Source: Phycisphaerales bacterium
GTDB taxonomy: Bacteria; Planctomycetota; Phycisphaerae; Phycisphaerales; SM1A02
DNA length: 64,000 nt
Direction: 5' to 3'
Assembly: GCA_022446795.1 (NCBI GenBank)
Contig: JAKVBX010000017.1
Location: 1-64,000, forward strand
The stretch's first letter is position 1, and each line of letters starts with the position of its first letter. Below, piece after piece: positions 24,173 through 37,623 of this stretch. Below the pieces are notes generated by a model that searched no databases, was not told the origin of the DNA, and saw only the letters and a list, made by a program, of their open reading frames with translations. The translations under genes and the position numbers were made by a program.

Positions 24173-25303
24173 TCACGGGCCCGGGGGGTCGGTCGCTGGC
24201 CCAGGCGAGCTCGATGGGGGCGGCTCCGGGGGGGCGTCGTCCTTTGGTGAGCCTCCCGTTTCCACGGCCCGGGCCCGCTCCTGCTGGATCTCCCGCAACT
24301 GGGTCAGTCGTTCGACCACGGGGATCTGCGTGTTCTCCAGGTTGTCCCGCCCGTTCCAGAAGATCACCCGCTTGACGCCCAGGGAGGCCAGGTACTCCAG
24401 CCGGTCAGCCAGGCCGTTGAGATCAGCCGGCTTGAGCGCCAGCGAGGAGTGGCCGGGCGCGTTGTACACCGTGAGACTCATCAGCACGATGATGTCAACC
24501 GGGCGGCCACAGGCCTTGACGATCTGCAGGGAATGCGACATGGCCTGGCGGGTCGCTCGCTTCATCTGCTTGTAGCCCGGGTCCTTCGGGCCGAAGCGCT
24601 CGTAGACCTCCGGCGAGATGGCGTTCACGTTCTCGAGCATGCCCATCTTCGCGGCCAGGATCTCGGCTCGCACCCGGGACTTCTCAATGTCGCGTTCACG
24701 ACCCATCGAGTCCGGTGATCCCATGCTGAAGACCGTCAGCGTGGCATTGGGAAAGGCGTCGCGAATCACGGAGTAGCGACGGGCGAACGCATTGACGATG
24801 TTGGTGAACTCCGGCGTGATCTGATCATGATCGGGGCCACCGAGATATCTCCAGAAGTCACGTGGCTGCACGGGAGATTCAATGTCGATGATGATGGTTC
24901 GAGTGGTCTTGCGGGAGAGCTGCGGGTGGATCTCCAGGTACCGCTCAAGCGATGACTCCATCTTGGAGCGAGGCATCTCGATGAACAGCTTCATGCTCTC
25001 ATCGTGAAGGGCCATCCGCTCTTCTCGAGACAGTCGATGGTCAGTGACGGCACCAACCGCGTATTCAGACATGCACCAGGCATCGTTGAGCACACCGATT
25101 CGGGCCAGGTTGCCGGTGGCATACTGGTCCTGGAGCGCCAACGAGATCATGGGCCACTCGGGAACGGTGCCATCCGGTGTTGCGGTGGCCGGTGGCTTGG
25201 CCTCGGCGGGTTTCTCATCGCCCAGGCCGGGGGCGGCCAGCAGCAGCAGGACGGCAGCGAGGCCGTAGAGCGCCTCACGACGGAAGTGGATTCGGGTAGC
25301 CAT
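24173..25303 (-). CDS. Exported protein of unknown function
   Basis: The 376-residue protein starts at the ATG at 25303, seven bases after GGAGGAG. The N-terminus (residues 10 to about 30) is a signal peptide or membrane anchor. The centre (about 120-330) has the pattern TRTIIIDIESP, FRRYSVIRDAFPNATLTVFSMGSPD, and RVIFWNGRDNL, which suggests an alpha/beta barrel of the glycoside-hydrolase-like type. I cannot name a family. The last 30 residues are rich in proline and serine. The start lies inside the 3' end of the O-antigen-ligase-like gene (29-base overlap), so the two are translationally coupled and probably act together in the envelope. Confidence 0.75.
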   Translation of the reverse strand: MATRIHFRREALYGLAAVLLLLAAPGLGDEKPAEAKPPATATPDGTVPEWPMISLALQDQYATGNLARIGVLNDAWCMSEYAVGAVTDHRLSREERMALHDESMKLFIEMPRSKMESSLERYLEIHPQLSRKTTRTIIIDIESPVQPRDFWRYLGGPDHDQITPEFTNIVNAFARRYSVIRDAFPNATLTVFSMGSPDSMGRERDIEKSRVRAEILAAKMGMLENVNAISPEVYERFGPKDPGYKQMKRATRQAMSHSLQIVKACGRPVDIIVLMSLTVYNAPGHSSLALKPADLNGLADRLEYLASLGVKRVIFWNGRDNLENTQIPVVERLTQLREIQQERARAVETGGSPKDDAPPEPPPSSSPGPATDPPGP

Positions 25304-26639
25304 CCATGTTCTCCTCCGTTTCCTGTTCATACTCCTGGTGGGTCTCTTCTTCCAGCCGCTCCAGGTAGTCCGCTTCCAGGTGGGGGATGTCCTTCTGCAT
25401 GGAGAGGAACAACACCGTCAGTACCACGCAGAAGAAGGACCACGTGTATGTCGGGTGGAAGATGACCTGGTTGGCCATGCCCTGCAGATACATCGCGACG
25501 AGGGTCGAGGCCAACGCGTGAATCAGGAACCGCTGATTCGGCGTGGCAAAGACATACCGGGTCCTCCAGACGCGCCACATGGCACGGATGCCCGAGAGGA
25601 TCACGATGAACATCGGAAGAAAGTACGGCCAACCGCCCAGGTAGAGCATCTCGAAGAACATGTTGTGGGGGTGGTCGCCGACGGAGATGGCGATGTGGGA
25701 GTTCAAGCCTGACGTGCCGAAGAGCCCCAGCGGCCGTTGCAGGGACAGCATGAAGTACTGCCACCAGATATCCAGTCGGCCACTGGAGTCAATCGATCCC
25801 AGGCGTTCGACCGCGTAGTCACTGAGTCCCAGGAAGAAGGGAAGCACCAGGGCTCCCGCGACAATTCCGGTCAGGACCAGGCCCGGTCGCTTCAGGAGCG
25901 GGAAGCTCATCAGGCCCAGGGCGGCCGCCATGGCGAACACCACCTGGCGGCTGCCGGTCACCATGGCCATGCCGATATCCGCCAGGAGCAGCCCGATCAG
26001 GACGGCGCGGATCGAGACCGAGGCCGTTGTCATGATCGTATAGAGAAGGATCGGCGCGGCCATCAGGAACGCGACACCGATGAGGTTCGGATGCGCACCC
26101 CAGGGTGTGAATCGACCGATGTTGCCGAACAGCTCACCTGGGTTCAGGATCACGGCCGCGATCGGGATGGCCAGGGCGATCACGGTACCGACCGTCAGCG
26201 CCTTCATCAGGGCCTCGACATCCTCGATGGTGCTCAGCGTGGAGACCGTCGCCAGGGCGGCCAGGGTGAGCATGATCCACTGGAACTGGATCACCAGGAC
26301 ATCAGTCCGTTCTTCTACCCCCAGCAGGCACATGAGCAGGTAGGTACCGAACAGTGGATACAGCCAGGCCAGGCCCGGGATCGGTCTCTTGGGTACGGGT
26401 CTCATGACCGCGGCCAGGGCGATGAGCAGGAAGAGGAGGCCGGAGGTGATCTTGGTGAAGGCCTGGGCCGGACCCAGGTCGGGGCAGCGAGCAATGACGA
26501 GCCAGGCCGGCATGATGATGAACGTGGCGTAGAACCGCGTGTCCGCGGGCAGGATCAGGTAGAGCATCATCATCGCGAAGCCAGCCCCGCCGATGATCGG
26601 CAGGGGAACGACTTCGAGATAGAGGGTGAGTTTGTCCAT
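25275..26639 (-). CDS. O-antigen ligase-like polytopic membrane protein
   Basis: The 454-residue protein starts at the ATG at 26639 (MDKLTLYLEVVPLPIIGGAG). About 11-12 hydrophobic segments are visible. In the C-terminal third the large loop ends with GTSGLNSHIAISVGDHPHNMFFEMLYLGGW. The H-x-HN element and the loop position fit the Wzy/WaaL (O-antigen ligase/polymerase) superfamily. The enzyme would join or polymerise lipid-linked glycans on the periplasmic side. The tail is acidic (EEETHQEYEQETEEN). Whether it is a ligase or polymerase cannot be decided from sequence. Confidence 0.82.
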   Translation of the reverse strand: MDKLTLYLEVVPLPIIGGAGFAMMMLYLILPADTRFYATFIIMPAWLVIARCPDLGPAQAFTKITSGLLFLLIALAAVMRPVPKRPIPGLAWLYPLFGTYLLMCLLGVEERTDVLVIQFQWIMLTLAALATVSTLSTIEDVEALMKALTVGTVIALAIPIAAVILNPGELFGNIGRFTPWGAHPNLIGVAFLMAAPILLYTIMTTASVSIRAVLIGLLLADIGMAMVTGSRQVVFAMAAALGLMSFPLLKRPGLVLTGIVAGALVLPFFLGLSDYAVERLGSIDSSGRLDIWWQYFMLSLQRPLGLFGTSGLNSHIAISVGDHPHNMFFEMLYLGGWPYFLPMFIVILSGIRAMWRVWRTRYVFATPNQRFLIHALASTLVAMYLQGMANQVIFHPTYTWSFFCVVLTVLFLSMQKDIPHLEADYLERLEEETHQEYEQETEENMDGYPNPLPS

Positions 26640-26718
26640 GGCAGCGGGCCCCGGGGCGGGCCGTGATGGCAATCGGTCGCCGAACAAGTCAGATCGGGTC
26701 GTCGCGGTCCCGGGTATC

Positions 26719-26740
26719 AAAAACCCCGGTCCTGAACCGG
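26719..26740 (-). terminator. Intrinsic terminator after the GAF-phosphatase gene
   Basis: On the minus strand CCGGT-TCAGG-ACCGG is followed by GG and TTTTT. It lies about 50 bases after the stop at 26791 and would end the six-gene signalling cassette. Confidence 0.6.
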
Positions 26741-26790
26741 ATCACCTCGTGAGGATACCCCGTGGAATCGGTCGGATCCCGGATTCCTGC

Positions 26791-28062
26791 TCAGGACGTG
26801 GGAAGGCGGTGAATCAGGACGGCGGTGCGATCGTCATCGGCAGGCTGGTACGCCGTGTACTCGACCACCCGGTCACGGATGACCTGGAGAATCTCGACCG
26901 ACGATCGGTCCCGGTGCTCCCGGAGGAGATCGATGATGCGATCCGTGCCGAACATCTCGCGATCCGGGCCAGCGGCTTCCGCAAAGCCGTCGCTGGCGAC
27001 GAAGAACAAGTCGCCCGGCTCCATCTTGAACGGGATCGGATCGCCCAGTGGCAGGTCCGCCATGATGCCCAGGGGTGGCGCGTCGGCCGCCAGAACGTCA
27101 ACCTGATCGTCGGCGTGCAGGTGGATGAGTGGTCCCTGGCCCGCGGCAATCGATGACAGCGTGTGCGTCATGGTGTCCAGGACACCGAACCAGGCCGTTA
27201 CGAATCGGGACGGTGGCGTATCAGCCGCCAGTTGTCGATTGAGATGGTCCACCAGCGGCTTGGGATCTGCGCCCAGCAGTAGCGCCATGCGGAGCATGGA
27301 TCGCACCTGGGTGACCGAGATTGCCGGTCCAATGCCATGCCCGGTGGCGTCGCCCACCAGGAACACGGCGCCGGTTCCCGTGGCAACGGCGTCCCACGTA
27401 TCCCCACCGGTATCCTCCGCTGGCTCGCTGTAGCCGGCACAGTCATAGCCGGCGATGGGTGGGCAGGCCGACGGGAAGGTGGATTGCTGAATCTCGCGGG
27501 CGAGGCGGAGGTCACGCTGGACCTTCTCCAGTTCGACCCGGTGTTCGATGAGTCGCGAACGACGCATGGCTACGGCGCACTGTGCCGCCAGTGCGGCGGC
27601 GATGGCTTCGTCCTGCAGATCGAACACGCCGTCCTTCTTGTTGAGCACCTGGGCGACCCCGACCAGGTCTCCTTCGCTGGAACACATCGGAACCGTCAGA
27701 AGCGATCGGGTTCGGTACCCGGTCTTCTTGTCGATCTCCGGGTTGAAGCGGTCATCCGAGTAGGCGTCGGGGATGTTGATCATCTCACGGGTCTGCGCCA
27801 CGCTTCCGGCCAGGCCAGTGCCGACCGGGAACCGGATGCCGGAGAAGGATTCATCCAGTCCACCGTCGGGACCGTGAGCCAGTACTGCGACCAGTTCGCC
27901 AGCGGCGGCGTCATGCTCGAAAACGGTGGCCCGCTCGGCTTTCAGAACATCACGCAGGCAGTTCACGACACCCACCTGTACGGATCGCGTGTCGGCTGTC
28001 GAGCCCAGTTGCTGGCTGACCTCCAGGATGCGGTACAGGATTTCTTGTGGGATATGGGTCAT
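26791..28062 (-). CDS. GAF-domain SpoIIE/RsbU-type protein phosphatase
   Basis: The 423-residue protein starts at the ATG at 28062. The longer frame to 28419 overlaps the cyclase gene and is not supported. An N-terminal GAF domain (about 15-170) has GIRFPVGTGLAG and RSLLTVPMC. A linking helix (about 172-195, DLRLAREIQQSTFP) and a PP2C-SpoIIE catalytic domain (about 200-420) follow. Metal-binding aspartates are D238 in GDATGHG, D358 in SDGFAEA and D410 in DDDRT. The family usually dephosphorylates anti-sigma-factor antagonists in partner-switching pathways. It lies 46 bases after the cyclase gene, so it is probably the cytoplasmic output of the same signalling operon. No kinase or antagonist partner is encoded nearby. 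Confidence 0.88.
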   Translation of the reverse strand: MTHIPQEILYRILEVSQQLGSTADTRSVQVGVVNCLRDVLKAERATVFEHDAAAGELVAVLAHGPDGGLDESFSGIRFPVGTGLAGSVAQTREMINIPDAYSDDRFNPEIDKKTGYRTRSLLTVPMCSSEGDLVGVAQVLNKKDGVFDLQDEAIAAALAAQCAVAMRRSRLIEHRVELEKVQRDLRLAREIQQSTFPSACPPIAGYDCAGYSEPAEDTGGDTWDAVATGTGAVFLVGDATGHGIGPAISVTQVRSMLRMALLLGADPKPLVDHLNRQLAADTPPSRFVTAWFGVLDTMTHTLSSIAAGQGPLIHLHADDQVDVLAADAPPLGIMADLPLGDPIPFKMEPGDLFFVASDGFAEAAGPDREMFGTDRIIDLLREHRDRSSVEILQVIRDRVVEYTAYQPADDDRTAVLIHRLPTS

Positions 28063-28108
28063 GGCCGAGCGGCATGGTACGTCCAGGCCACGACGGACGC
28101 GCCGGATC

Positions 28109-30829
28109 TCACTTCTCAACGAGTTGGAGCGGGCCACCGAAGCCCTCGGCGGGCCCCTCGACCATGTCTGCCCAGCGGGCGACGAACCCCTCCTGGCCCG
28201 GGATCGCTCGCAGGCTCGCCAGGGCCTTGGCCGCGGCGGCCTGGTTTCCGTCGGCGACGGCGTCGGACAGGGCGGCGGACAGGTCGATCGCCTCCTGTGG
28301 GAAGTCCGCGTTGACGATCTCCCACGCCCGGACCGGGGTCTGGCGGCCGACCACCTGGATGGCGCCGATGAACCGGCATCGCACCGGCGCATCGCCGAGG
28401 CACTCGTGTGTCCGGTCATTCACGAGGATGCCGGATCCGAACTGCTTGTTCGCCGATTCCAGCCGAGCGGCCAGGTTCGCGGTGTCGCCGATGACCGTGT
28501 AGTCGTTGAGATCCGGCGGCGCGCCGCAATCGCCCACGACGGCCATCCCGGTCGCGATGCCCACCCGCAGGCCGATGGGCGGGTGATCACCGGAGGTCAG
28601 TTCGTTGAGTTGCCTGACGGTGTCCTGACAGGCCAGTGCGGCGGCGCAGGCCAGGTGGGCCTGTGCCGGTTCCTCGCGGAAGGCGGACCAGAAGGCCATG
28701 ACCCCGTCACCGAGAAACTTGTTGACGTAGGCGCCGTGTTCGACCATCTGCGAGGTGAGCGCGGAGAGGTACGTGTTCAGGATCCGTACGATCTGCTCGG
28801 AACCCAGCGATTCACTCAGTTGCGTGAAGCCGGCCAGGTCAGTGAACAGGATCGACATCTCGCGTGACACACCGGTCATCGAGACGGCGTCGGGATCAGC
28901 AATCAACGCATCCACCAGTTGGTCGGAGACCCGGGCGCGGAACTGGCGGGTGATCCGCCGCTTGTCCCGCTGTGCCATGGCCGCCTGCACACCTGTACCG
29001 CTGATCCAGGCCGCCAGTCCCGACAGCACCGGGGCGGCGATCGGAAGGATGAGATTGGCCATGGACAAGGCGAGCACGCCGGCGACACCGACGTACAGCA
29101 CGACGGCCAGCAGCGATGTGGCGGTGGCCCACCATGGTCCCAGCGTGGCAACCAGGATGGCGACCAGCAGGCCCAGCGCGATGATCACGATCGGGCTGAG
29201 CCAGGCGTCCGCCACGTGAAGTCCGCGGTTCTGGAGCACCATGTCGGCCAGCGTGGCATGCACCAGGACACCCGGTGTCCGGGGGCCCGCGACCGTGGCG
29301 ATGAAGTCCGCGGCGGCACCGGTGGAGGTCCACCCGATGAAGACCAGGGCATCATTCACCTGCGACGCCAGCGCGGCTTCGCCCCGCTCCAGTCGCTGGA
29401 CGTCTTCCTCGATCGCGATGGTGATCTGCCGCCATTGCTGCATGGCCGAGAGCAGTCGGAGCGTTTCCTCATCCTCGCCTTCGGCGAACTGGTCCGGCTC
29501 GGCGTCGATGGGGACACCCTCAAGGTTGAAACTCACCTCGTCTGCGATCACCGACTGGATATCGGCGTCGAGCCAGTCGGGCGCCGTGGCGTTCGGGTCC
29601 TGCTGGATGACACGGACCAGGTCCCGGCTGATCTCACGGAGATCGTCCTGGAGCTTCCTCAGCGTGCGTCGGGCGCGTCCGATCTCGACGATCTCGCTGA
29701 CGGCGAGATGCCCGCGGTACTCCGGGTCGTCAACGGTTCGACGGTGCAGATCCCGCCACCGCCACCCGGCTTCACTGCGTGGCCAGTTCAGCCAGATGAG
29801 GTTGTCCTGCAGGGGAAGATCCGACTCGCCGATGCTGATCGTGTCGTCGGAGATGATCACCGTATCGGGCGCCTGGTCCAGGTAGTGCGCCACGGCGGCA
29901 AGGCCCAGTGACAGTACGCGTCCACCGCGGACTGGTTGCGCCGGGTAGATGGACCGGACGGCACCGTCGGGTCCACGGTGGGTGATGTTCACGTAACCCA
30001 TGCCACCGGAATCTTCCAGGAACGTCGACAGCGGCATTCGATCGGCGGTCGAACCGGGGATCGTCTCATTGCGCGAGGCCAGGAACCGATCCGCGTTGGC
30101 CAGGCCGTCGTGCTGCAGCCAGGCCGCTTCCAGCAGCGGCCGTTCCGGGTAGGTCGCACCGTGCAGGTGCCGGGCGGGAACGAGGCGGCGTTCCAGTTCA
30201 TCCAGGCTCGTGGGGGCCTCGGGTCCCGAGAGGAACTGGAGGATCGCGCGACGTTTCACCAGGAGGTGGTTCGCAACGAACGCGGCCTGGTCCGATTCCG
30301 TCAGCGTGGCCTCGGCCGGGGGGCGCTCCGGTGTGGCAGTGATGTCGCTCGTGAGGGCTCCGACCAGTCGATCAAGGGCCGCAGGTTTGCCGCCGGCATC
30401 ATCCCATCGCAGTTCCAGTTCATCATCTGCCAGCACCGCAGCCAGGACCGTTCGTCCGTCGATGGACTCGGCCAGCACGGAGTCCTCGTCGCGAGGGGCC
30501 TTCTGGATCGGATCCCAGGTCGGGTCCTGGGGATTCGAGAACTCGATATCCAACGCAATGGTCCTGGCCCCGGCTCGGCGCAGTTCATTGACCGCATCGG
30601 CCAGAACCGAGCGTGGCCACGGCCATCGACCGAGTCGGTCGATGGAACCGTCGTCAATGTCCACGAGCACGATGGTGTCGCTGTAGGGCTGTGTGTCGCG
30701 CGGCAGCAGACGCTGCTGCGTGTCCATCAGTCGTTGGTTGACGGCGTCAAACGTCCCCGCGAGGTCCAGCAGCAGAACGACCAGGACGGCCAGCAGCGAG
30801 GCGGCGAGAACGGGAGCGTGGCGAGGCAC
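28109..30829 (-). CDS. CHASE2-domain class III adenylate cyclase
   Basis: This 906-residue membrane protein has an N-terminal membrane helix (about 6-26), a long extracytoplasmic CHASE2-type region (about 30-530, with IVLVDIDDGSIDRLGRWPWPR), three membrane helices (about 545-612) and a class III cyclase domain (about 655-845). Metal aspartates are D664 (LFTDLAGF) and D708 (FLGDGVM). The purine-recognition pair is K704 and T778, and the transition-state residues N785 and R789 (NLAARL) are present, so it should be active and make cAMP. The start is a GTG at 30829, needed for the first membrane helix; its ribosome site is weak. CHASE2 senses signals outside the cytoplasm. FecR-domain genes lie just upstream, a pairing also seen in other phyla. 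Confidence 0.9.
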   Translation of the reverse strand: MPRHAPVLAASLLAVLVVLLLDLAGTFDAVNQRLMDTQQRLLPRDTQPYSDTIVLVDIDDGSIDRLGRWPWPRSVLADAVNELRRAGARTIALDIEFSNPQDPTWDPIQKAPRDEDSVLAESIDGRTVLAAVLADDELELRWDDAGGKPAALDRLVGALTSDITATPERPPAEATLTESDQAAFVANHLLVKRRAILQFLSGPEAPTSLDELERRLVPARHLHGATYPERPLLEAAWLQHDGLANADRFLASRNETIPGSTADRMPLSTFLEDSGGMGYVNITHRGPDGAVRSIYPAQPVRGGRVLSLGLAAVAHYLDQAPDTVIISDDTISIGESDLPLQDNLIWLNWPRSEAGWRWRDLHRRTVDDPEYRGHLAVSEIVEIGRARRTLRKLQDDLREISRDLVRVIQQDPNATAPDWLDADIQSVIADEVSFNLEGVPIDAEPDQFAEGEDEETLRLLSAMQQWRQITIAIEEDVQRLERGEAALASQVNDALVFIGWTSTGAAADFIATVAGPRTPGVLVHATLADMVLQNRGLHVADAWLSPIVIIALGLLVAILVATLGPWWATATSLLAVVLYVGVAGVLALSMANLILPIAAPVLSGLAAWISGTGVQAAMAQRDKRRITRQFRARVSDQLVDALIADPDAVSMTGVSREMSILFTDLAGFTQLSESLGSEQIVRILNTYLSALTSQMVEHGAYVNKFLGDGVMAFWSAFREEPAQAHLACAAALACQDTVRQLNELTSGDHPPIGLRVGIATGMAVVGDCGAPPDLNDYTVIGDTANLAARLESANKQFGSGILVNDRTHECLGDAPVRCRFIGAIQVVGRQTPVRAWEIVNADFPQEAIDLSAALSDAVADGNQAAAAKALASLRAIPGQEGFVARWADMVEGPAEGFGGPLQLVEK

Positions 30830-30896
30830 GGTTGGAGTGTACGGATCCGGTCGTGGTCATGCACGAACGCGACCCGGGAGCCGGCGTGATGACGGC

Positions 30897-32564
30897 TCAG
30901 GGCACGGGAGGGACCACGACACCCTTCGGCAGGAACTGGCTCAGGGCCGCGTTGCCGTACGTCGTGAATTGACCGAATGGTTGCCCCGTCACGTCCTGGT
31001 ACAGGGTCTGCTGGACGGCAGCGGCAAACTGGGCTCGGACGAAGGGCGTTTGCCCCTGGAAGGGCTGCAACTTGGCAAAGGCGTCAACGGACTGCAGCAT
31101 CACGTCCAGGTCATGGTCCCTGGGGCCCGGGCCGGTGCCATTGAGCCAATCGGTGTATCGCAAGGCCCCGTAGTGATAGATGCGGGCATACATGTCGCCG
31201 ACCGTCTGGATGGGCTGGCCGGGACCGACCCCGTCCGGGATCTCCAGGGGCGGGTTGACGCGGACGCCCAGTGGGTTGTCGGTGCCACCGGCGAGCTCGT
31301 AGATCCTCGGCTCAAAGACCGCCGGGATCTGGTGTCGATCGTGGAGTCCGGTGCCGTTTACGGTATCGACGAATCCCACCGGAATGGGCTGCAGGTTCTC
31401 GAACTGCGGGAATCGCTCACCCAGGTCCTCGGGAACGAGATCCAGGTAGATCGCAGCAGCCAGCATGCCACGGTCCGTGGGTGAGACGACCTCGCGGAAG
31501 TATGACTGGAAGCCATCGAGATCAATGATGTCGATCGGCGGCGGATCCACCGGCGGATCATCCGCGGGTGGTGGTGGTGGCGGCGGTGGTGGTGGCGGAG
31601 GCGCATCCGGTGGCGGCTCACTCGGCGGGGGTGGCGGCGGGTTCTCCAACGCCTCGAGTTCCAGCCGGACGCGTTCGTCGAAATCGGCGAAATCACGTCG
31701 CTCACGCGTGCCCTGTTCAGCCGCCAGGACCAGTCGCGTGGTTTCCCGCAGGCCACCGTCGACACCGCGAGGTGCAGATCCACCCTTGCTGTTGCTCTTG
31801 GCGTCCATCTGGTGTGACTTGTTGAGCGACTTGCGACCCGACGTCCGGCTCACGGCCTTGTGCGTCGGGTTCTTGGCGCGATTGGATGTCGAGCCACGGC
31901 CCGAGACGCTCCACGTCTTCTTGTTTCCGTAGTACCGCATCTCGATGGCGTTGATCGAATTCAGTCGAGCGCCATGGACACTCGTCCCGGCGAAGCCGTC
32001 ATACCCGACACCCATGCCGGTCCCGCGGACGGACAAGGCGCCGCTGGGCGTGACGACGGAGAAGTCGTTGGTCAGGCCGACTCGATCCACCTTGAAGTCG
32101 GCCCGGCCGCGATTGACCTGCACGACCGTGCTCAGGGTGTCACCGTTCTGCGCCAGGTGTGGAACCAGTACGCGTGAATTGGAATCGACCAGGATCGTTG
32201 CATTGGGACCGCAGCGAAGGGCGAGGTGTGATCGCAGTCCGGTCCGGATCATGGCGCCCGGAATCAGTCGATCATCGATGGAGGCCTTCTGCCACTTGGC
32301 TTTCTCGTCGGTACGCCACTGGCACCGACCGCGGACCTCCATGATCACGGCCTCGAGAACCCTCGTCGTCCCTTCGGCGAGTGCTTCCACCGGGCCCGTG
32401 GCGGTTGCGACGGACAGGGCGGCCAGGTGCAGCTGTGCAGCATCAACCTGGTTCAGCGGTGGCAGGTCACCCTTGGCCGGCTCGACGTCCTGCGCCAGGG
32501 CAGCCGTGGCGAAGGTCGTGATGAGCAGGGCGGCGAAGGCCGTGAAGAGTCTTTTCTGGGGCAT
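30897..32564 (-). CDS. Exported FecR-domain protein with proline-rich segment
   Basis: The 555-residue protein has a signal peptide (residues 1-25, AALAQ). The FecR-type domain (about 65-215) has MEVRGRCQWRTDEKAKW, GAMIRTGLRSHLALRCG, VQVNRGRADFKVDRVGLTN and SALSVRGTGM-like sequence. It is not preceded by an anti-sigma (DUF4880) region or membrane helix, so it is not a classical FecR anti-sigma protein. A proline tract (about 310-345) leads to a C-terminal domain of about 200 residues starting LDGFQSYF, shared with the paralogue upstream. The likely role is periplasmic or extracellular ligand sensing for the CHASE2 cyclase that follows 67 bases later. Confidence 0.82.
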   Translation of the reverse strand: MPQKRLFTAFAALLITTFATAALAQDVEPAKGDLPPLNQVDAAQLHLAALSVATATGPVEALAEGTTRVLEAVIMEVRGRCQWRTDEKAKWQKASIDDRLIPGAMIRTGLRSHLALRCGPNATILVDSNSRVLVPHLAQNGDTLSTVVQVNRGRADFKVDRVGLTNDFSVVTPSGALSVRGTGMGVGYDGFAGTSVHGARLNSINAIEMRYYGNKKTWSVSGRGSTSNRAKNPTHKAVSRTSGRKSLNKSHQMDAKSNSKGGSAPRGVDGGLRETTRLVLAAEQGTRERRDFADFDERVRLELEALENPPPPPPSEPPPDAPPPPPPPPPPPPADDPPVDPPPIDIIDLDGFQSYFREVVSPTDRGMLAAAIYLDLVPEDLGERFPQFENLQPIPVGFVDTVNGTGLHDRHQIPAVFEPRIYELAGGTDNPLGVRVNPPLEIPDGVGPGQPIQTVGDMYARIYHYGALRYTDWLNGTGPGPRDHDLDVMLQSVDAFAKLQPFQGQTPFVRAQFAAAVQQTLYQDVTGQPFGQFTTYGNAALSQFLPKGVVVPPVP

Positions 32565-32748
32565 GATTGGATGGTCCCGCGGGGCGTTCCTCCCTCAAGT
32601 GTACGAGAGGGGAGGCGTCCCGTTCGGTCCAAAGTATGGACCGGGAATCCGGGGCCGTCCATCATTTCAGCATTCCTGCCCGGGCCGGGGGCCATTGACA
32701 GGCCATACGACCAGTCGAGGTGGATCTTCCAACCGGGAATCGCGGTCA

Positions 32749-34464
32749 TTATTGGCCGAAGTTGAACCCGCTGACACCTGACGGATAGACGTGGGAGTAG
32801 TCCACGAGCAGCTGATTGCCGTAGAAGGTGAAGCCCGCTCCGGACGTGCCGGCGGTCTGGTACAGGGCCGCATCGAGGGCGTTGGTGAAGATCTGGCGAG
32901 GTGTCACGAGATCCGTTCCAAACACGGCGGGGTTGGCCACGAGGTAGTCCTCGTAGATCTGGGTGATGTGTGCCATGTCAGCCTGCGTGGGGGCGGCACC
33001 GCCAAATTCGGCGGGCTTGTACCACTGTGAATTCTCCAGGCCGTAGTTGATGATCCCGAAGTACATGGGGTGCATCGCACTCGTGGCATCGGGCAGATCG
33101 TTGAACGCGGTCAGGGGGACGTCCGGGCGAGCACCCGAGAGCGTTCCGTACTGGCTGTACAGGGCCGGTTCCAGGAAATGCGGGACGCGTCGGCGATACA
33201 GGTCGGTACCAAGGACGTTGATCTGTGCGGCGATCAACTGCGGCTGGCCCTTGGCCGTCAGACCCAGTTGCTGGTCTGCATTGACGAGGTCCAGGACCAG
33301 TGCCGCGGCGAGGAAGCCCTGGTCACTTGGACTGGCCATGGCCTGGAAGTAGCTGCGGTATCCGTCGAGCTCCAGGGTGTCCTGGGGCGGTACGTTGTCG
33401 TTGTTGTCCGCGTTGTCCTGCTCTTCCTCGATGATCTCCTCGATGATCTCGGCGACTTCTTCACCGATGATGCCGGCTTCAGCGGCCGCCTGGGCCTCGA
33501 GCAGCGAGGCATAGAGCAGGGCTTCCTGGTTCAAGAGGATGCCTGCGAGCACTTCTTCCTCGATCTTCGACAGGGCGCTGTCAGCCCGGAGCTGCTGCTC
33601 CTGGGCCAGCACGATTCGCGTCGTATCCGACGTGGTGTCCGTTGCGCTCATCGCCTGGTCGGCAGCGGAGTCAAACGAGTCCGCTTCCTCGGCCTCGTAG
33701 GCCTGGAGCGAGGGGGCCGGCCGCGTCTCAAGGGCGGCGCCCGTGGCGGGATTCGGCACGGCCTGGGTGGAGACGGCGCCGCCGGACATCAGCCAGGCGT
33801 AGCCCTCCCGGGCGAAGTACTTCATCTCGATGGCGTTCATTCGATTGTGTCGCGCGCCGACGACGCTGGTCCCGGTGAACCCGTCGTACTGGACACCCAT
33901 GCCGGTTCCCTTCACCGCGAGCGAACCCGACGGCGTCAGGACGGAGAAGTCATTCGTCAGGCCGACCCGGTCGACCTGGATGTCGGCCCGTCCACGGTTG
34001 ACGGTGACGATGGTGCGGAGCACCTGTCCGTCCTGCATCAACTGGGGCAGTTGGGCGCGGGTATTGCTGTCCACGAGTACGGTCGAGTTGAGACCGACTC
34101 GAAGCGTGAGCATGGAATTGAGGCCGGTGCGAATCAGGGCACCGGGTCGGAGTGAGTCGTTGACCGTGGCGTTCTTCCAGGTGGCCTTCTCGTCCGGTCG
34201 CCACTGGCAGCGGCCCTTGACCTGCATCACGATCGCGCCCAGGTCCCGGGTCTGTCCCTCGGGCAGGGCCTTGGCGTTGTCCTTGAAGGCACCCTTGAAG
34301 CGGGCCAGCCGCTGCTGGATCTCGGCCACTCGCGTGGTGGCTTCCGGATCGATCGGCTGCTGCGGATCCGACACGGGAACCGGTGCATCCTGTGCCGAAG
34401 CCGCGACCGCGGCCAGCAGGATGCTGGTGAGGATGAGCATTGGATTTCGCATTCCTCGAGTCAT
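32749..34464 (-). CDS. Exported FecR-domain protein (paralogue) with acidic linker
   Basis: The 571-residue protein starts at the ATG at 34464 after GGGAGGT and has a signal peptide (ILLAAVAASAQ). The FecR-type domain (about 70-230) repeats the blocks of its downstream paralogue: MQVKGRCQWRPDEKATW, GALIRTGLNSMLTLRVG, VTVNRGRADIQVDRVGLTN and SLAVKGTGMGVQYDGF. In place of a proline tract it has a glutamate/asparagine-rich linker (EEVAEIIEEIIEEEQ). The C-terminal domain begins LELDGYRSYF as in the paralogue. The pair arose by duplication. The different linkers suggest different partners or spacing in the envelope. Confidence 0.82.
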   Translation of the reverse strand: MTRGMRNPMLILTSILLAAVAASAQDAPVPVSDPQQPIDPEATTRVAEIQQRLARFKGAFKDNAKALPEGQTRDLGAIVMQVKGRCQWRPDEKATWKNATVNDSLRPGALIRTGLNSMLTLRVGLNSTVLVDSNTRAQLPQLMQDGQVLRTIVTVNRGRADIQVDRVGLTNDFSVLTPSGSLAVKGTGMGVQYDGFTGTSVVGARHNRMNAIEMKYFAREGYAWLMSGGAVSTQAVPNPATGAALETRPAPSLQAYEAEEADSFDSAADQAMSATDTTSDTTRIVLAQEQQLRADSALSKIEEEVLAGILLNQEALLYASLLEAQAAAEAGIIGEEVAEIIEEIIEEEQDNADNNDNVPPQDTLELDGYRSYFQAMASPSDQGFLAAALVLDLVNADQQLGLTAKGQPQLIAAQINVLGTDLYRRRVPHFLEPALYSQYGTLSGARPDVPLTAFNDLPDATSAMHPMYFGIINYGLENSQWYKPAEFGGAAPTQADMAHITQIYEDYLVANPAVFGTDLVTPRQIFTNALDAALYQTAGTSGAGFTFYGNQLLVDYSHVYPSGVSGFNFGQ

Positions 34465-34496
34465 CGGGACCTCCCGCCGAAGACGGGCTGGTGGGC

Positions 34497-35225
34497 CTAT
34501 GGGGACGTCCCGGAGCCCTCCGAAGGAGATGATCCGGGCGTCTCAGTACCGGGAGACGCTTCGTCGCCCGGGGATTGCTCCGGCCCACCTACGGAATTGC
34601 CATTCATCGGTGTGAGGGTTTCCGAGATTCTCTTGGCCTCGGCCTCCCTTTTCAGCTCTTTTTGCCGTTCCTGGAGCTTCTTGCGGGCCTCAACGGCTAC
34701 GTCGAAACGCTGCCGATCCTCGATATTGTCCACGTAAGCGGTGAATTCGAGCCCCGAGAGGGCCTCGTTCTCGGTGACCGCCGGCAGAATCCGCATGAAG
34801 GTCAATTCCCGACTGCAGTAGCGGGGAGAGTCCCCGAAGAGCCGCATCGTGAGCCCACCGTCGATCTCCAGGATCCGGCAGCCGGCGACGGCCATCCAGC
34901 CCACCTTGGCAGAGGCGTCGGCGGCGGGCATCCCGCCCCAGGATCCTTCGAACCAGCCCTTCTCCACCGCGGCCTCGTAGCGGCATTCATAGGTCTCGCA
35001 GTCGTCCGAGCCGTCCGCCAGCAGCAGGAGGCCATGAAGAGCGTCATTGTTGGTGACGACGGACTGCTTCGAGAGGGCATCCCAGAATTCAAAGTCCTGG
35101 TCTCCACCGGGGAACTGAACGGCGGCGGAGTTCTCGATCGTGGTGCGTTCGAAGAGATTGCATCCGGGCAGGACCAGGCCGGCGACGAGTGCCGTGATGA
35201 TCAGTGTTGATCGGCTAGAAGGCAT
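34497..35225 (-). CDS. Lipoprotein of unknown function
   Basis: The 242-residue protein starts at the ATG at 35225, preceded by GGGGAT. It has a lipoprotein signal with the lipobox LVLPGC, so the mature protein is anchored at its cysteine (about residue 23). The body contains QFPGGDQDFEFWDALSKQSVVTNNDALHGLLLLADG, four further cysteines in DDCETYECRYE and RYCSREL, and a lysine/glutamate-rich helix (EARKKLQERQKELKREAEAKR) likely to form a coiled coil. The tail is low-complexity. The start overlaps the barrel gene by 11 bases, so the two are coupled. I do not recognise a family. Confidence 0.8.
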   Translation of the reverse strand: MPSSRSTLIITALVAGLVLPGCNLFERTTIENSAAVQFPGGDQDFEFWDALSKQSVVTNNDALHGLLLLADGSDDCETYECRYEAAVEKGWFEGSWGGMPAADASAKVGWMAVAGCRILEIDGGLTMRLFGDSPRYCSRELTFMRILPAVTENEALSGLEFTAYVDNIEDRQRFDVAVEARKKLQERQKELKREAEAKRISETLTPMNGNSVGGPEQSPGDEASPGTETPGSSPSEGSGTSP

Positions 35226-36708
35226 AACTGATCCCCGCGTAGACGAAGTGGCGTTCCTTGTCGAAGGGTGCGGCGATGCCATTGCCCGGGAAGAAGATTC
35301 CGTACCGGATGTTGGCACTGACGTCGCTGGTGATCCGCCAGTCCAGGCGGAGGTCCATCTCGAAACCGATCCAGTGACTGTCACCGGAGAGACCACTGGT
35401 GGGGCTCGCGAGGTCCATCTTGTTGTAGAAGAAGAAGTCTGCGCCGACCCGCAGGGCGTCAGGCCGCTTCACCTCGATGGGGATCGCCGTGCTGGCCCCC
35501 AGTCGGAACAGGGCGAGGTTCGCCAGGTCCGGGGCGTAGGCCAGGCCCGTGTAGATGTACCCGAGGCTGTTGAAGGCGCGGTCGGTGGACCCGGTGCGGT
35601 TGCCTCCGTAGGTACCGGAGGTCGTGAGTCGATCGGGGTCGCCCGTGCCAAAGGCGCCGGTGAAGCTGAAGTTGGTCAGGTTCGAGTCACGCAGGGCGTA
35701 GATGATGTTCAGCACGCCGGCCCAGGCATCGATGGAGTCCTTGGTCTGCGGCACCGCGGTCGCCGGCAGGACAAACGGGCTGCTCAGCGTGGAACCGCCT
35801 TCCTTTACGATCTCCAGCGAGTAGGTCAGCTGCGGGCCGACGGAGCCCGTGGCACCGAACGAGAAGTACTGCGAGTTGTAGTCGAAGTTGACGGGGCCGA
35901 AGATCGAGCTGAGTTCCTCGTCCTCGGGATTGTGATCCCGTTGGATGAAGTACGACACGAAGGGCTTGAACTCGGTGGCGATCTCGTAGTCAACGCGGGC
36001 CGCGTAGAGGTGCCGATTGGTGTAGCCGTCGTAGTTGGGCCGCGAGATGTCGAAGTCGTACATCCCGCTGCGAGCCGTCCGCCCGATGAGCCCGACGAAC
36101 TCAAGTCGTTCCCAGTCGGCCGACAGGCGGAGGGCGTACGCATCATTGCTGAAGACGGCGCCGGTGTTCCAGTTCAGGAACATGCGGCCGACCCGGGCGT
36201 TGATGTTGTACGGCAGTCGCTGGCCGGTCTCGGCCAGGTGCGCGGCCCGGAGATCGAACTCGTACCAGTACCGGTTCCCGATGGGATACAGCAACTGGCT
36301 GTTGTCGCCATCGAAGGCATCACCATTGGGATAGTCGTTGTACAGGAATCGGAGGTTGCCGAAGAAGTTGTGCCCACCGTCGAGGTTCGCCGACAGGTAG
36401 AGGTTGGCCTCGTACTGCAGCAGCGTCCGGGTATCGCCGAAGGCATCGTCGATACCGGCGACTCCGAATCGAAGCGAGGCTCCGTAATCGAAGGTCAGGC
36501 GCTCACCGACGGTCTGGCCGCGGGAGGTTCGCAGCCGGAGGTCGATGTCCTGTCGAGACAGTGCGTCCTCGAGGCGAGTGAGGACCTCGAGTGAATTCCC
36601 CGGGACACCGCCCTGGCCATGGACAACCGCGGCTGGAACCAGCGCGGCCATGATGGCCAGGAGGACCAGGAGAGATCGATGTTGCATGGCTGAACCCGGT
36701 GCGGGCAT
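35215..36708 (-). CDS. Outer-membrane beta-barrel protein (alginate-export-like)
   Basis: The protein is 497 residues from the ATG at 36708, which has GGAG nine bases upstream; an ATG at 36687 gives a slightly shorter signal peptide. After the signal peptide (ending VVHGQ) the sequence is made of alternating amphipathic strands rich in Tyr, Phe, Asp and Asn (for example LTFDYGASLRFGV, HFVYAGISYAF). It ends in phenylalanine, the usual last residue of outer-membrane barrels. Length and pattern resemble the alginate-export (AlgE-like) barrels, but this is a pattern judgement. It is the first gene of the six-gene cassette. Confidence 0.75.
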   Translation of the reverse strand: MPAPGSAMQHRSLLVLLAIMAALVPAAVVHGQGGVPGNSLEVLTRLEDALSRQDIDLRLRTSRGQTVGERLTFDYGASLRFGVAGIDDAFGDTRTLLQYEANLYLSANLDGGHNFFGNLRFLYNDYPNGDAFDGDNSQLLYPIGNRYWYEFDLRAAHLAETGQRLPYNINARVGRMFLNWNTGAVFSNDAYALRLSADWERLEFVGLIGRTARSGMYDFDISRPNYDGYTNRHLYAARVDYEIATEFKPFVSYFIQRDHNPEDEELSSIFGPVNFDYNSQYFSFGATGSVGPQLTYSLEIVKEGGSTLSSPFVLPATAVPQTKDSIDAWAGVLNIIYALRDSNLTNFSFTGAFGTGDPDRLTTSGTYGGNRTGSTDRAFNSLGYIYTGLAYAPDLANLALFRLGASTAIPIEVKRPDALRVGADFFFYNKMDLASPTSGLSGDSHWIGFEMDLRLDWRITSDVSANIRYGIFFPGNGIAAPFDKERHFVYAGISYAF

Positions 36709-36852: not shown

Positions 36853-37623
36853 ATGACAAGCATGAGAGTTATCGTCACTGGGACGGGTGATGCCTTCAGT
36901 ACGGAGCGATTTGGTTCCAGCGCACTCATCCAGACCCCCGAGGGGTTCACGGCCATCGACTGCCCGGCCTCACCGCTGGGGATGTATCGACGGGCCTCCG
37001 AGGTCTCCGGGATCGCGATCGACCCGGGGTGTATCCATGACCTGATCATGACGCATCTGCATGCCGATCACGCCGGTGGCCTGGAGACGATGGCCTTCTA
37101 TCGCCGCTACAAGGCTCCGGACAGCCCCAAGCCCCGGCTGTGGGCCGCCCCAGGCGTGATGGCCCGAATGTGGGAGCGACTCGCGCCCTCCATGGACGGT
37201 CGGGGCCTGGGCGAGACCCCGGCGTCATCGCTGGAGGATTTCTTCGAGCCTGGTGAACTGGCCCTTGATGGTGACACTCGAGTGGGGCCGCTCACGGTTC
37301 GCGTGCGATGGACGATCCATGCGGTCCCCACGGTCGGCCTGCTCATCAGCGACGGTGAGTCGACGCTGGGCTGGTCCAGTGACACGGAATTCCACGTGGA
37401 GCATGCCGACTGGTTGGCCGAAGCGGACCTGATCGTTCACGAGTGCGGCGAGTCGGTCAAGCACGCCACGTGGGAGCAGTTGTCCACGCTGCCGGAGGAT
37501 CTCCAGCGGCGGACGCGGCTCCTCCATGTTCCCGACGACGTCGATCTGCCGGATGGCTCCATGAAGCGCCTGCATGATGGCGAGGTGCTGGAGGTCCAGA
37601 GCCGGATCAGTGAGTCGATCTGA
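36853..37623 (+). CDS. MBL-fold metallo-hydrolase
   Basis: The 256-residue protein starts at the ATG at 36853 (or 36862); both have weak ribosome sites. The metal-binding motif HLHADHAGG is intact, with the later ligands likely in SSDTEFH and IVHECG. The beginning RVIVTGTGDAFSTERFGSSALIQ resembles the RNase Z-like/ribonuclease-Z-related branch of MBL hydrolases. The substrate is not known; cyclic or phosphorylated small molecules are as likely as RNA. It is divergent from the barrel gene (starts 144 bases apart) and precedes the monooxygenase by 28 bases, so they may form a pair. Confidence 0.85.
   Translation: MTSMRVIVTGTGDAFSTERFGSSALIQTPEGFTAIDCPASPLGMYRRASEVSGIAIDPGCIHDLIMTHLHADHAGGLETMAFYRRYKAPDSPKPRLWAAPGVMARMWERLAPSMDGRGLGETPASSLEDFFEPGELALDGDTRVGPLTVRVRWTIHAVPTVGLLISDGESTLGWSSDTEFHVEHADWLAEADLIVHECGESVKHATWEQLSTLPEDLQRRTRLLHVPDDVDLPDGSMKRLHDGEVLEVQSRISESI

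Follow-up and report, generated by a model that had tools for sequence, protein, structure and literature searches.

Introduction

In Campylobacterota, the genes for a CHASE2 adenylate cyclase, a FecR protein, a phosphodiesterase and a TPR protein are clustered, and CRP-like proteins occur in 86% of the species (PMC9239204). In Sinorhizobium, the outer-membrane barrel NsrA is needed for signal input to the CHASE2 cyclases CyaK, CyaD1 and CyaD2; the output there is the CRP-family protein Clr, and no FecR, lipoprotein or phosphatase was shown to be needed (PMC7529298, PMC13001267). Here we analyzed a 64,000-nucleotide (nt) stretch, referred to as the window, of contig JAKVBX010000017.1 from Phycisphaerales bacterium GCA_022446795.1, whose genome is 96% complete. 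The window carries genes for an AlgE-like barrel, a lipoprotein with a predicted S-layer homology (SLH)-type fold, two FecR-domain proteins (FecR1 and FecR2), a CHASE2 cyclase and a GAF-SpoIIE (PP2C) phosphatase, with a divergent gene for a probable phosphodiesterase of the metallo-beta-lactamase (MBL) fold beside them. We consider it reasonably probable that this is a conserved envelope-to-cytoplasm cyclic AMP (cAMP) signalling cassette consisting of an envelope sensor, a cyclase, a GAF-PP2C reader and a phosphodiesterase eraser, whose functional steps we infer throughout.

As in the Campylobacterota cluster, a FecR gene adjoins the CHASE2 cyclase gene here, and a phosphodiesterase gene belongs to the neighbourhood as well. 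An earlier note on the window (the original prediction) had called the co-occurrence of FecR and CHASE2-cyclase genes known, which agrees with this published clustering with a phosphodiesterase. The TPR protein of the Campylobacterota cluster has no counterpart among the cassette proteins and their immediate neighbours scanned with Pfam, and the same scan found neither an extracytoplasmic function (ECF) sigma factor nor a TonB receptor of a FecI-FecR-FecA layout. In comparison, the planctomycete cassette adds the AlgE-like barrel, the SLH-like lipoprotein and, in this lineage, the GAF-PP2C protein, while no CRP-like protein is found in this genome. With Sinorhizobium it shares the pairing of an outer-membrane barrel with a CHASE2 cyclase, the two barrels being likened by role. 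Relative to the FecR/CHASE2-cyclase theme, the coupling of a barrel with an SLH-like lipoprotein is new, as is a GAF-PP2C output candidate in genomes without CRP. The original prediction knew of no description of the full set, and we likewise found none of the planctomycete cassette in the open-licence literature on FecR/cyclase, CHASE2/PP2C/GAF and SLH/planctomycete topics.

Conservation of the gene order in Planctomycetota

A search with FecR1 as bait covered the window's own genome and 100 relatives and gave matches in 43 of these 101; a lipoprotein profile searched in 392 genomes of the phylum was positive in 42. Because the baits differ between the locus sets, the neighbouring genes were not selected for. 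Nearly every locus retrieved, also from other families of the order, ran barrel, lipoprotein, FecR, CHASE2 cyclase. The arrangement persisted at protein identities of only 26-40%, both within the order, in several of its families, and in further families of the phylum. Most lipoprotein-positive loci outside the order again had a barrel and a FecR gene, and often a cyclase gene, nearby. Across 109 distinct loci, the barrel lay upstream of the lipoprotein in 104/107 and FecR downstream of it in 100/107, and a co-directional cyclase followed in 62 of the 74 with enough sequence. These four genes are a deeply conserved unit across several Planctomycetota families, and the comparison of gene order in distant genomes that the original prediction had proposed as a check came out strongly in their favour. 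The genomes are related and many are metagenome bins; statements of absence depend on their completeness.

The remaining two genes of the proposed six-gene cassette did not keep such a place. Most other genera have a single FecR, the second being mostly a genus-level duplicate, and the phosphatase gene was codirectional with the cassette in only 6 loci, being usually convergent and often unlinked. A fixed operon of six genes was therefore rejected, and the four-gene unit from barrel to cyclase is the part of it that stands. Named genome records added further loci, nearly all titled Phycisphaerales, other Planctomycetota or uncultured bacterium. Two records, titled Chitinophaga pinensis (L128) and Vicinamibacteraceae (L167), carry the planctomycete cassette and are probably mislabelled metagenome bins. 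A relative with a complete genome, Planctomycetales bacterium ZRK34, seems to have two copies of the cassette.

The barrel and the lipoprotein

The barrel matched the Pfam family Alginate_exp (PF13372) with 36.4 bits (cutoff 25.2), and its AlphaFold2 model, with a predicted local distance difference test (pLDDT) score of 81, matched AlgE with Z 29 and the barrel of the SLH-porin OmpM1 with Z 18.5. A C-terminal YxF signature is present in most homologues. Family and fold thus agree with the outer-membrane barrel of the original prediction and place it in the AlgE type, at 14% identity to AlgE and with no recurrent alginate genes. One could suppose that the barrel exports polysaccharide as AlgE does and that the cyclase regulates this export, since alginate export is the closest fold and Pfam family, and a gene for a polytopic membrane protein resembling a polymer ligase follows the cassette here and elsewhere in the genus. 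We regard this as distinctly improbable: no recurrent biosynthesis gene was apparent among the clustered flanking open reading frames (ORFs), many of whose clusters are antisense shadow ORFs, and the clearest recurrent flanking protein is citrate-synthase-like by inspection.

The lipoprotein has the lipobox VLPGC, whose Cys22 is invariant among homologues, as expected from the original prediction, which overlooked its SLH-like nature. The protein itself had no Pfam match, and its AlphaFold2 model reached a pLDDT of 86. The core superimposed on SpaA-SLH with Z 11.4 and a root-mean-square deviation of 3.2 over 127 residues; all 13 top rows of the fold search were SLH chains, and the next non-S-layer row had Z 4.5. 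The model shows the three-repeat pseudo-trimer of SLH domains, with a best Foldseek E value of only 0.023, and an SLH-type fold is predicted on this basis.

The two genes overlap by 11 nt, lipoprotein start over barrel stop, in 61 of the 81 distinct loci in which this was measured, a count in which the choice of start codon favours -11 when available. The overlap is built from the YxF end of the barrel, where TAT is followed by a codon starting with G and then by Phe and the stop. Independently of the start-codon choice, the Tyr at this site was encoded by TAT in 74/85 sequences, compared with 27% of Tyr in the remainder of these genes (P=4e-29, the related sequences not being independent). 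This biased codon at the overlap suggests selected translational coupling of barrel and lipoprotein, as would suit two partners produced at a constant ratio.

Together, the modelled barrel and lipoprotein resemble a split SLH-porin, an argument from fold that leaves wall binding unproven. OmpM is described as a tether and uptake channel that, like our pair, combines an SLH fold with an outer-membrane barrel (PMC10628300); in OmpM the two are joined in one polypeptide, whereas here they are encoded by two overlapping genes, the barrel is larger and AlgE-like, and the pair is coupled to a cyclase. The pair may be mainly a structural tether or porin, a split counterpart of OmpM, with FecR and cyclase monitoring its state or adjusting its expression and no external ligand being sensed. 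The SLH-like fold, the OmpM1 barrel among the matches, the translational coupling and the tether and channel role described for OmpM all speak for this. We still hold it to be unlikely, as the cassette is missing from many relatives (FecR in 43/101 genomes, lipoprotein in 42/392), unlike a general tether. It also overlaps the signalling account, the difference lying mostly in what is sensed.

FecR proteins and the CHASE2 cyclase

Both FecR proteins matched PF04773 above the cutoff of 24 (26.2 and 29.9 bits), in line with the two exported FecR-domain proteins first reported, and they are paralogues with 49% identity N-terminally and 34% C-terminally. In some relatives, FecR proteins of 1500-2000 residues were observed (L058, L063 and L064), and the two of these scanned, L058 and L064, had no Pfam domain beyond FecR.

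The cyclase matched CHASE2 (PF05226) with 123 bits and Guanylate_cyc (PF00211) with 73 bits, and is the only class III cyclase match in the genome. It combines CHASE2 and membrane segments with the complete catalytic set claimed earlier, namely the metal Asp pair, Lys/Thr, Asn and Arg of class IIIb (D664, K704, D708, T778, N785 and R789), all invariant in 70-71 aligned sequences. From these residues the cyclase would be expected to make cAMP.

The GAF-SpoIIE phosphatase as candidate cAMP reader

As in the original prediction, the phosphatase is of the SpoIIE type with a GAF domain (PF01590, 63 bits; PF07228, 131 bits). Its GAF carries the NKFDE motif, described for cyclic nucleotide monophosphate (cNMP)-binding GAFs (PMC4411481), as NKKDGVFDLQDE. 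The best PDB match was the CyaB2 GAF 1ykd (6e-30), with CyaB2, PDE2A and PDE5 on top, followed by PDE10A and PDE6, and an unrelated GAF of the same genome, taken as a control, gave no CyaB2 match. The N[K/R]..F..DE motif was found in 37/49 phosphatase orthologues versus 1/29 other GAFs; the latter were 30 collected GAFs less the window's own phosphatase, one or two of them with doubtful reading frames. Sequence similarity and the NKFDE motif thus connect this GAF with the cNMP-binding GAFs of CyaB2 and the phosphodiesterases (PMC4411481), with the difference that here the GAF is fused to PP2C and binding is a prediction. We conclude that the phosphatase GAF likely binds cAMP.

We next considered the distribution of orthologues, defined as near-full-length matches of roughly at least 300 bits plus three split or partial matches. 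They were found in 45/50 genomes with a class III cyclase versus 0/51 without (P=2e-23, relatives not being independent), and by genus in 31/35 versus 0/40. Since many of these phosphatase copies are unlinked to the cassette, the co-occurrence with the cyclase is not mere neighbourhood. As a partner of the system the phosphatase of the original prediction is thus supported by its phylogenetic profile, and not by operon membership. No CRP-type receptor (PF00027) was found in the window's own genome, in a search that did not extend to cAMP binders other than CRP and GAF; none was found in the five other genomes of the genus, and 19 genomes have cyclase and phosphatase in the absence of PF00027. 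As the genome has no CRP-type receptor, we regard the phosphatase as the foremost candidate for a reader of cAMP, either the only one or the main one.

Alternatively, cAMP may be read elsewhere, by a universal-stress-type protein, by a response regulator-GAF-Ser/Thr kinase with a STAS protein, or by a distant cNMP-binding domain, the phosphatase being only co-inherited with the cyclase. For one universal stress protein, from a mycobacterium, cAMP binding is described (PMC11107214). The kinase GAF of our genome matched CyaB2 at 1e-26, with a STAS gene after the kinase gene, and kinase-GAF matches also occur in G009 and G012, two genomes with cyclase and without a phosphatase orthologue. Such a reader seems rather unlikely to us, given that the presence of the phosphatase follows that of the cyclase over 35 genera, also where the two genes are unlinked, and that the kinase GAF is without the NKFDE motif. 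The kinase gene lies on contig C7 (L212:5156-7072, minus strand), followed by the STAS gene (L212:4700-5083, minus strand), and it is possible that this kinase opposes the cassette phosphatase. On contig C77 (L213:4181-5999, plus strand), HATPase_c_2 and STAS genes adjoin a gene for an MlaE permease. None of the STAS and HATPase proteins of the genome is linked specifically to the cassette phosphatase, and the sigma-factor output of the original prediction found no support.

Several points weigh against the signalling account and its reader, in addition to the scope of the PF00027 search in the own genome. The kinase GAF is CyaB2-like as given above, a third GAF of the genome is so more weakly, and the GAF of an HD-GYP-type protein (4mcw, PDB) is also similar to the phosphatase GAF; because other GAFs have it in common, CyaB2-like similarity is no proof of cAMP binding. 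The NKFDE motif is not universal among the phosphatase orthologues, and three genomes have the cyclase with neither phosphatase nor PF00027. The P values overstate significance, as relatives are not independent. Families f4-f6 yielded no phosphodiesterase gene adjacent to the barrel. Finally, the fold is the sole ground for the SLH assignment, the Pfam SLH signature having no match in 45 lipoprotein homologues.

The divergent MBL-fold protein

Upstream of the barrel, the original prediction omitted the divergent MBL-fold gene from an otherwise valid list of six. Its product had Apyc1 as best PDB match (7u2r, 4e-16; also 7u2s) and 6kns, a putative metal-dependent hydrolase, as a weaker one. It scored 46.5 bits with PF23023, just below the curated cutoff of 50, and has the motif HLHADH; the HxHxDH metal site of the Apyc1 class was present in 43/43. 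Apyc1 and YhfI are cyclic-nucleotide phosphodiesterases (PMC9117128) with which our protein has HxHxDH and the best PDB matches in common, with the difference that it is chromosomal, lies beside a cyclase cassette and falls below the Pfam cutoff. It is probably a class II cyclic-nucleotide phosphodiesterase of the Apyc1/YhfI kind, judging by these resemblances.

The gene lies divergent beside the barrel in 39 of the 85 loci with enough upstream sequence; in two other genomes it is found outside the cassette as the immediate neighbour of the phosphatase gene. Among family members it occurs in 26/28 of those with the cyclase and in 6/33 of those without. In two further relatives, it lies beside or near a PF00027 gene (G072:C44:223905-225200; G041:C222:15260-20577).

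An Apyc1-like neighbour, and a cyclase domain that matches the PycC models of PADLOC, might recall anti-phage defence of the Pycsar type, accompanied by its own anti-Pycsar enzyme. We regard this as highly improbable and disfavour it: the PycC match is limited to the cyclase domain, PADLOC found no effector, such as the cNMP-gated toxic effector of Pycsar, among the other cassette proteins, and neither the CHASE2, FecR and barrel parts nor the strongly conserved order fit.

Proposed mechanism

In the signalling account, the AlgE-like barrel and the translationally coupled SLH-like lipoprotein would form an outer-membrane module that probably touches the cell wall. Periplasmic FecR would relay its state to the CHASE2 domain of the inner-membrane cyclase, a step for which the conserved linkage of the genes and the known FecR/CHASE2 pairing speak. 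The cyclase, with its catalytic residues in place, would make cAMP; the phosphatase GAF would bind it and thereby control dephosphorylation, with a STAS-type protein as the most likely target; and the divergent phosphodiesterase, from its homology and linkage, would erase the signal. A wider proposal is that in planctomycetes without CRP the GAF-SpoIIE phosphatase serves as cAMP receptor, with a split SLH-porin/FecR/CHASE2 envelope sensor at its input and partner switching in place of CRP as output, so that cAMP would act directly on protein dephosphorylation; we make it tentatively and hold it with less confidence than the cassette itself.

Few inputs are known for the widespread sensor domain CHASE2, and the fixed four-gene unit, together with the likely phosphodiesterase, offers a concrete path for one. 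In genomes without CRP, the distribution of the phosphatase points to a class of bacterial cAMP receptors outside CRP, and also to a direct link of cAMP with phosphatase switching.

Locus layout and flanking features

All six cassette ORFs lie on the minus strand, with intergenic gaps of -11, 32, 184, 67 and 46 nt; set, order, strand and gaps match the original prediction exactly. A sigma-70 promoter scan gave one weak site versus 1.7 expected. The terminator proposed after the last gene corresponds to a hairpin, and terminator-like sites in the region are near the shuffled level (7 observed versus 5.0 +/- 2.6), which leaves its position alone as suggestive.

Table 1. Coordinates of the cassette and adjoining features in the window.
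Feature	Position	Strand	Remarks
MBL-fold hydrolase, probable class II cyclic-nucleotide phosphodiesterase (Apyc1/YhfI-like)	36853..37623	+	start codon inferred
AlgE-type 18-strand outer-membrane barrel, N-terminal helix	35215..36708	-	start 36708 or 36687
Lipoprotein, predicted SLH-type fold	34497..35225	-	start overlaps barrel stop by 11 nt
Exported FecR-domain protein 1	32749..34464	-	PF04773; signal sequence visible at the N-terminus
Exported FecR-domain protein 2, tandem paralogue	30897..32564	-	PF04773
CHASE2-class IIIb adenylate cyclase	28109..30829	-	GTG start; PF05226 + PF00211
GAF-SpoIIE (PP2C) phosphatase, candidate cAMP reader	26791..28062	-	PF01590 + PF07228; GAF domain at 27535-28062
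Terminator-like hairpin just past phosphatase stop	26725..26741	-	suggestive by position only

Downstream of the cassette, at 24173-26720 on the minus strand, lie genes for two proteins that are conserved in the genus and have no Pfam match: the membrane protein resembling a polymer ligase and a secreted protein without family assignment.

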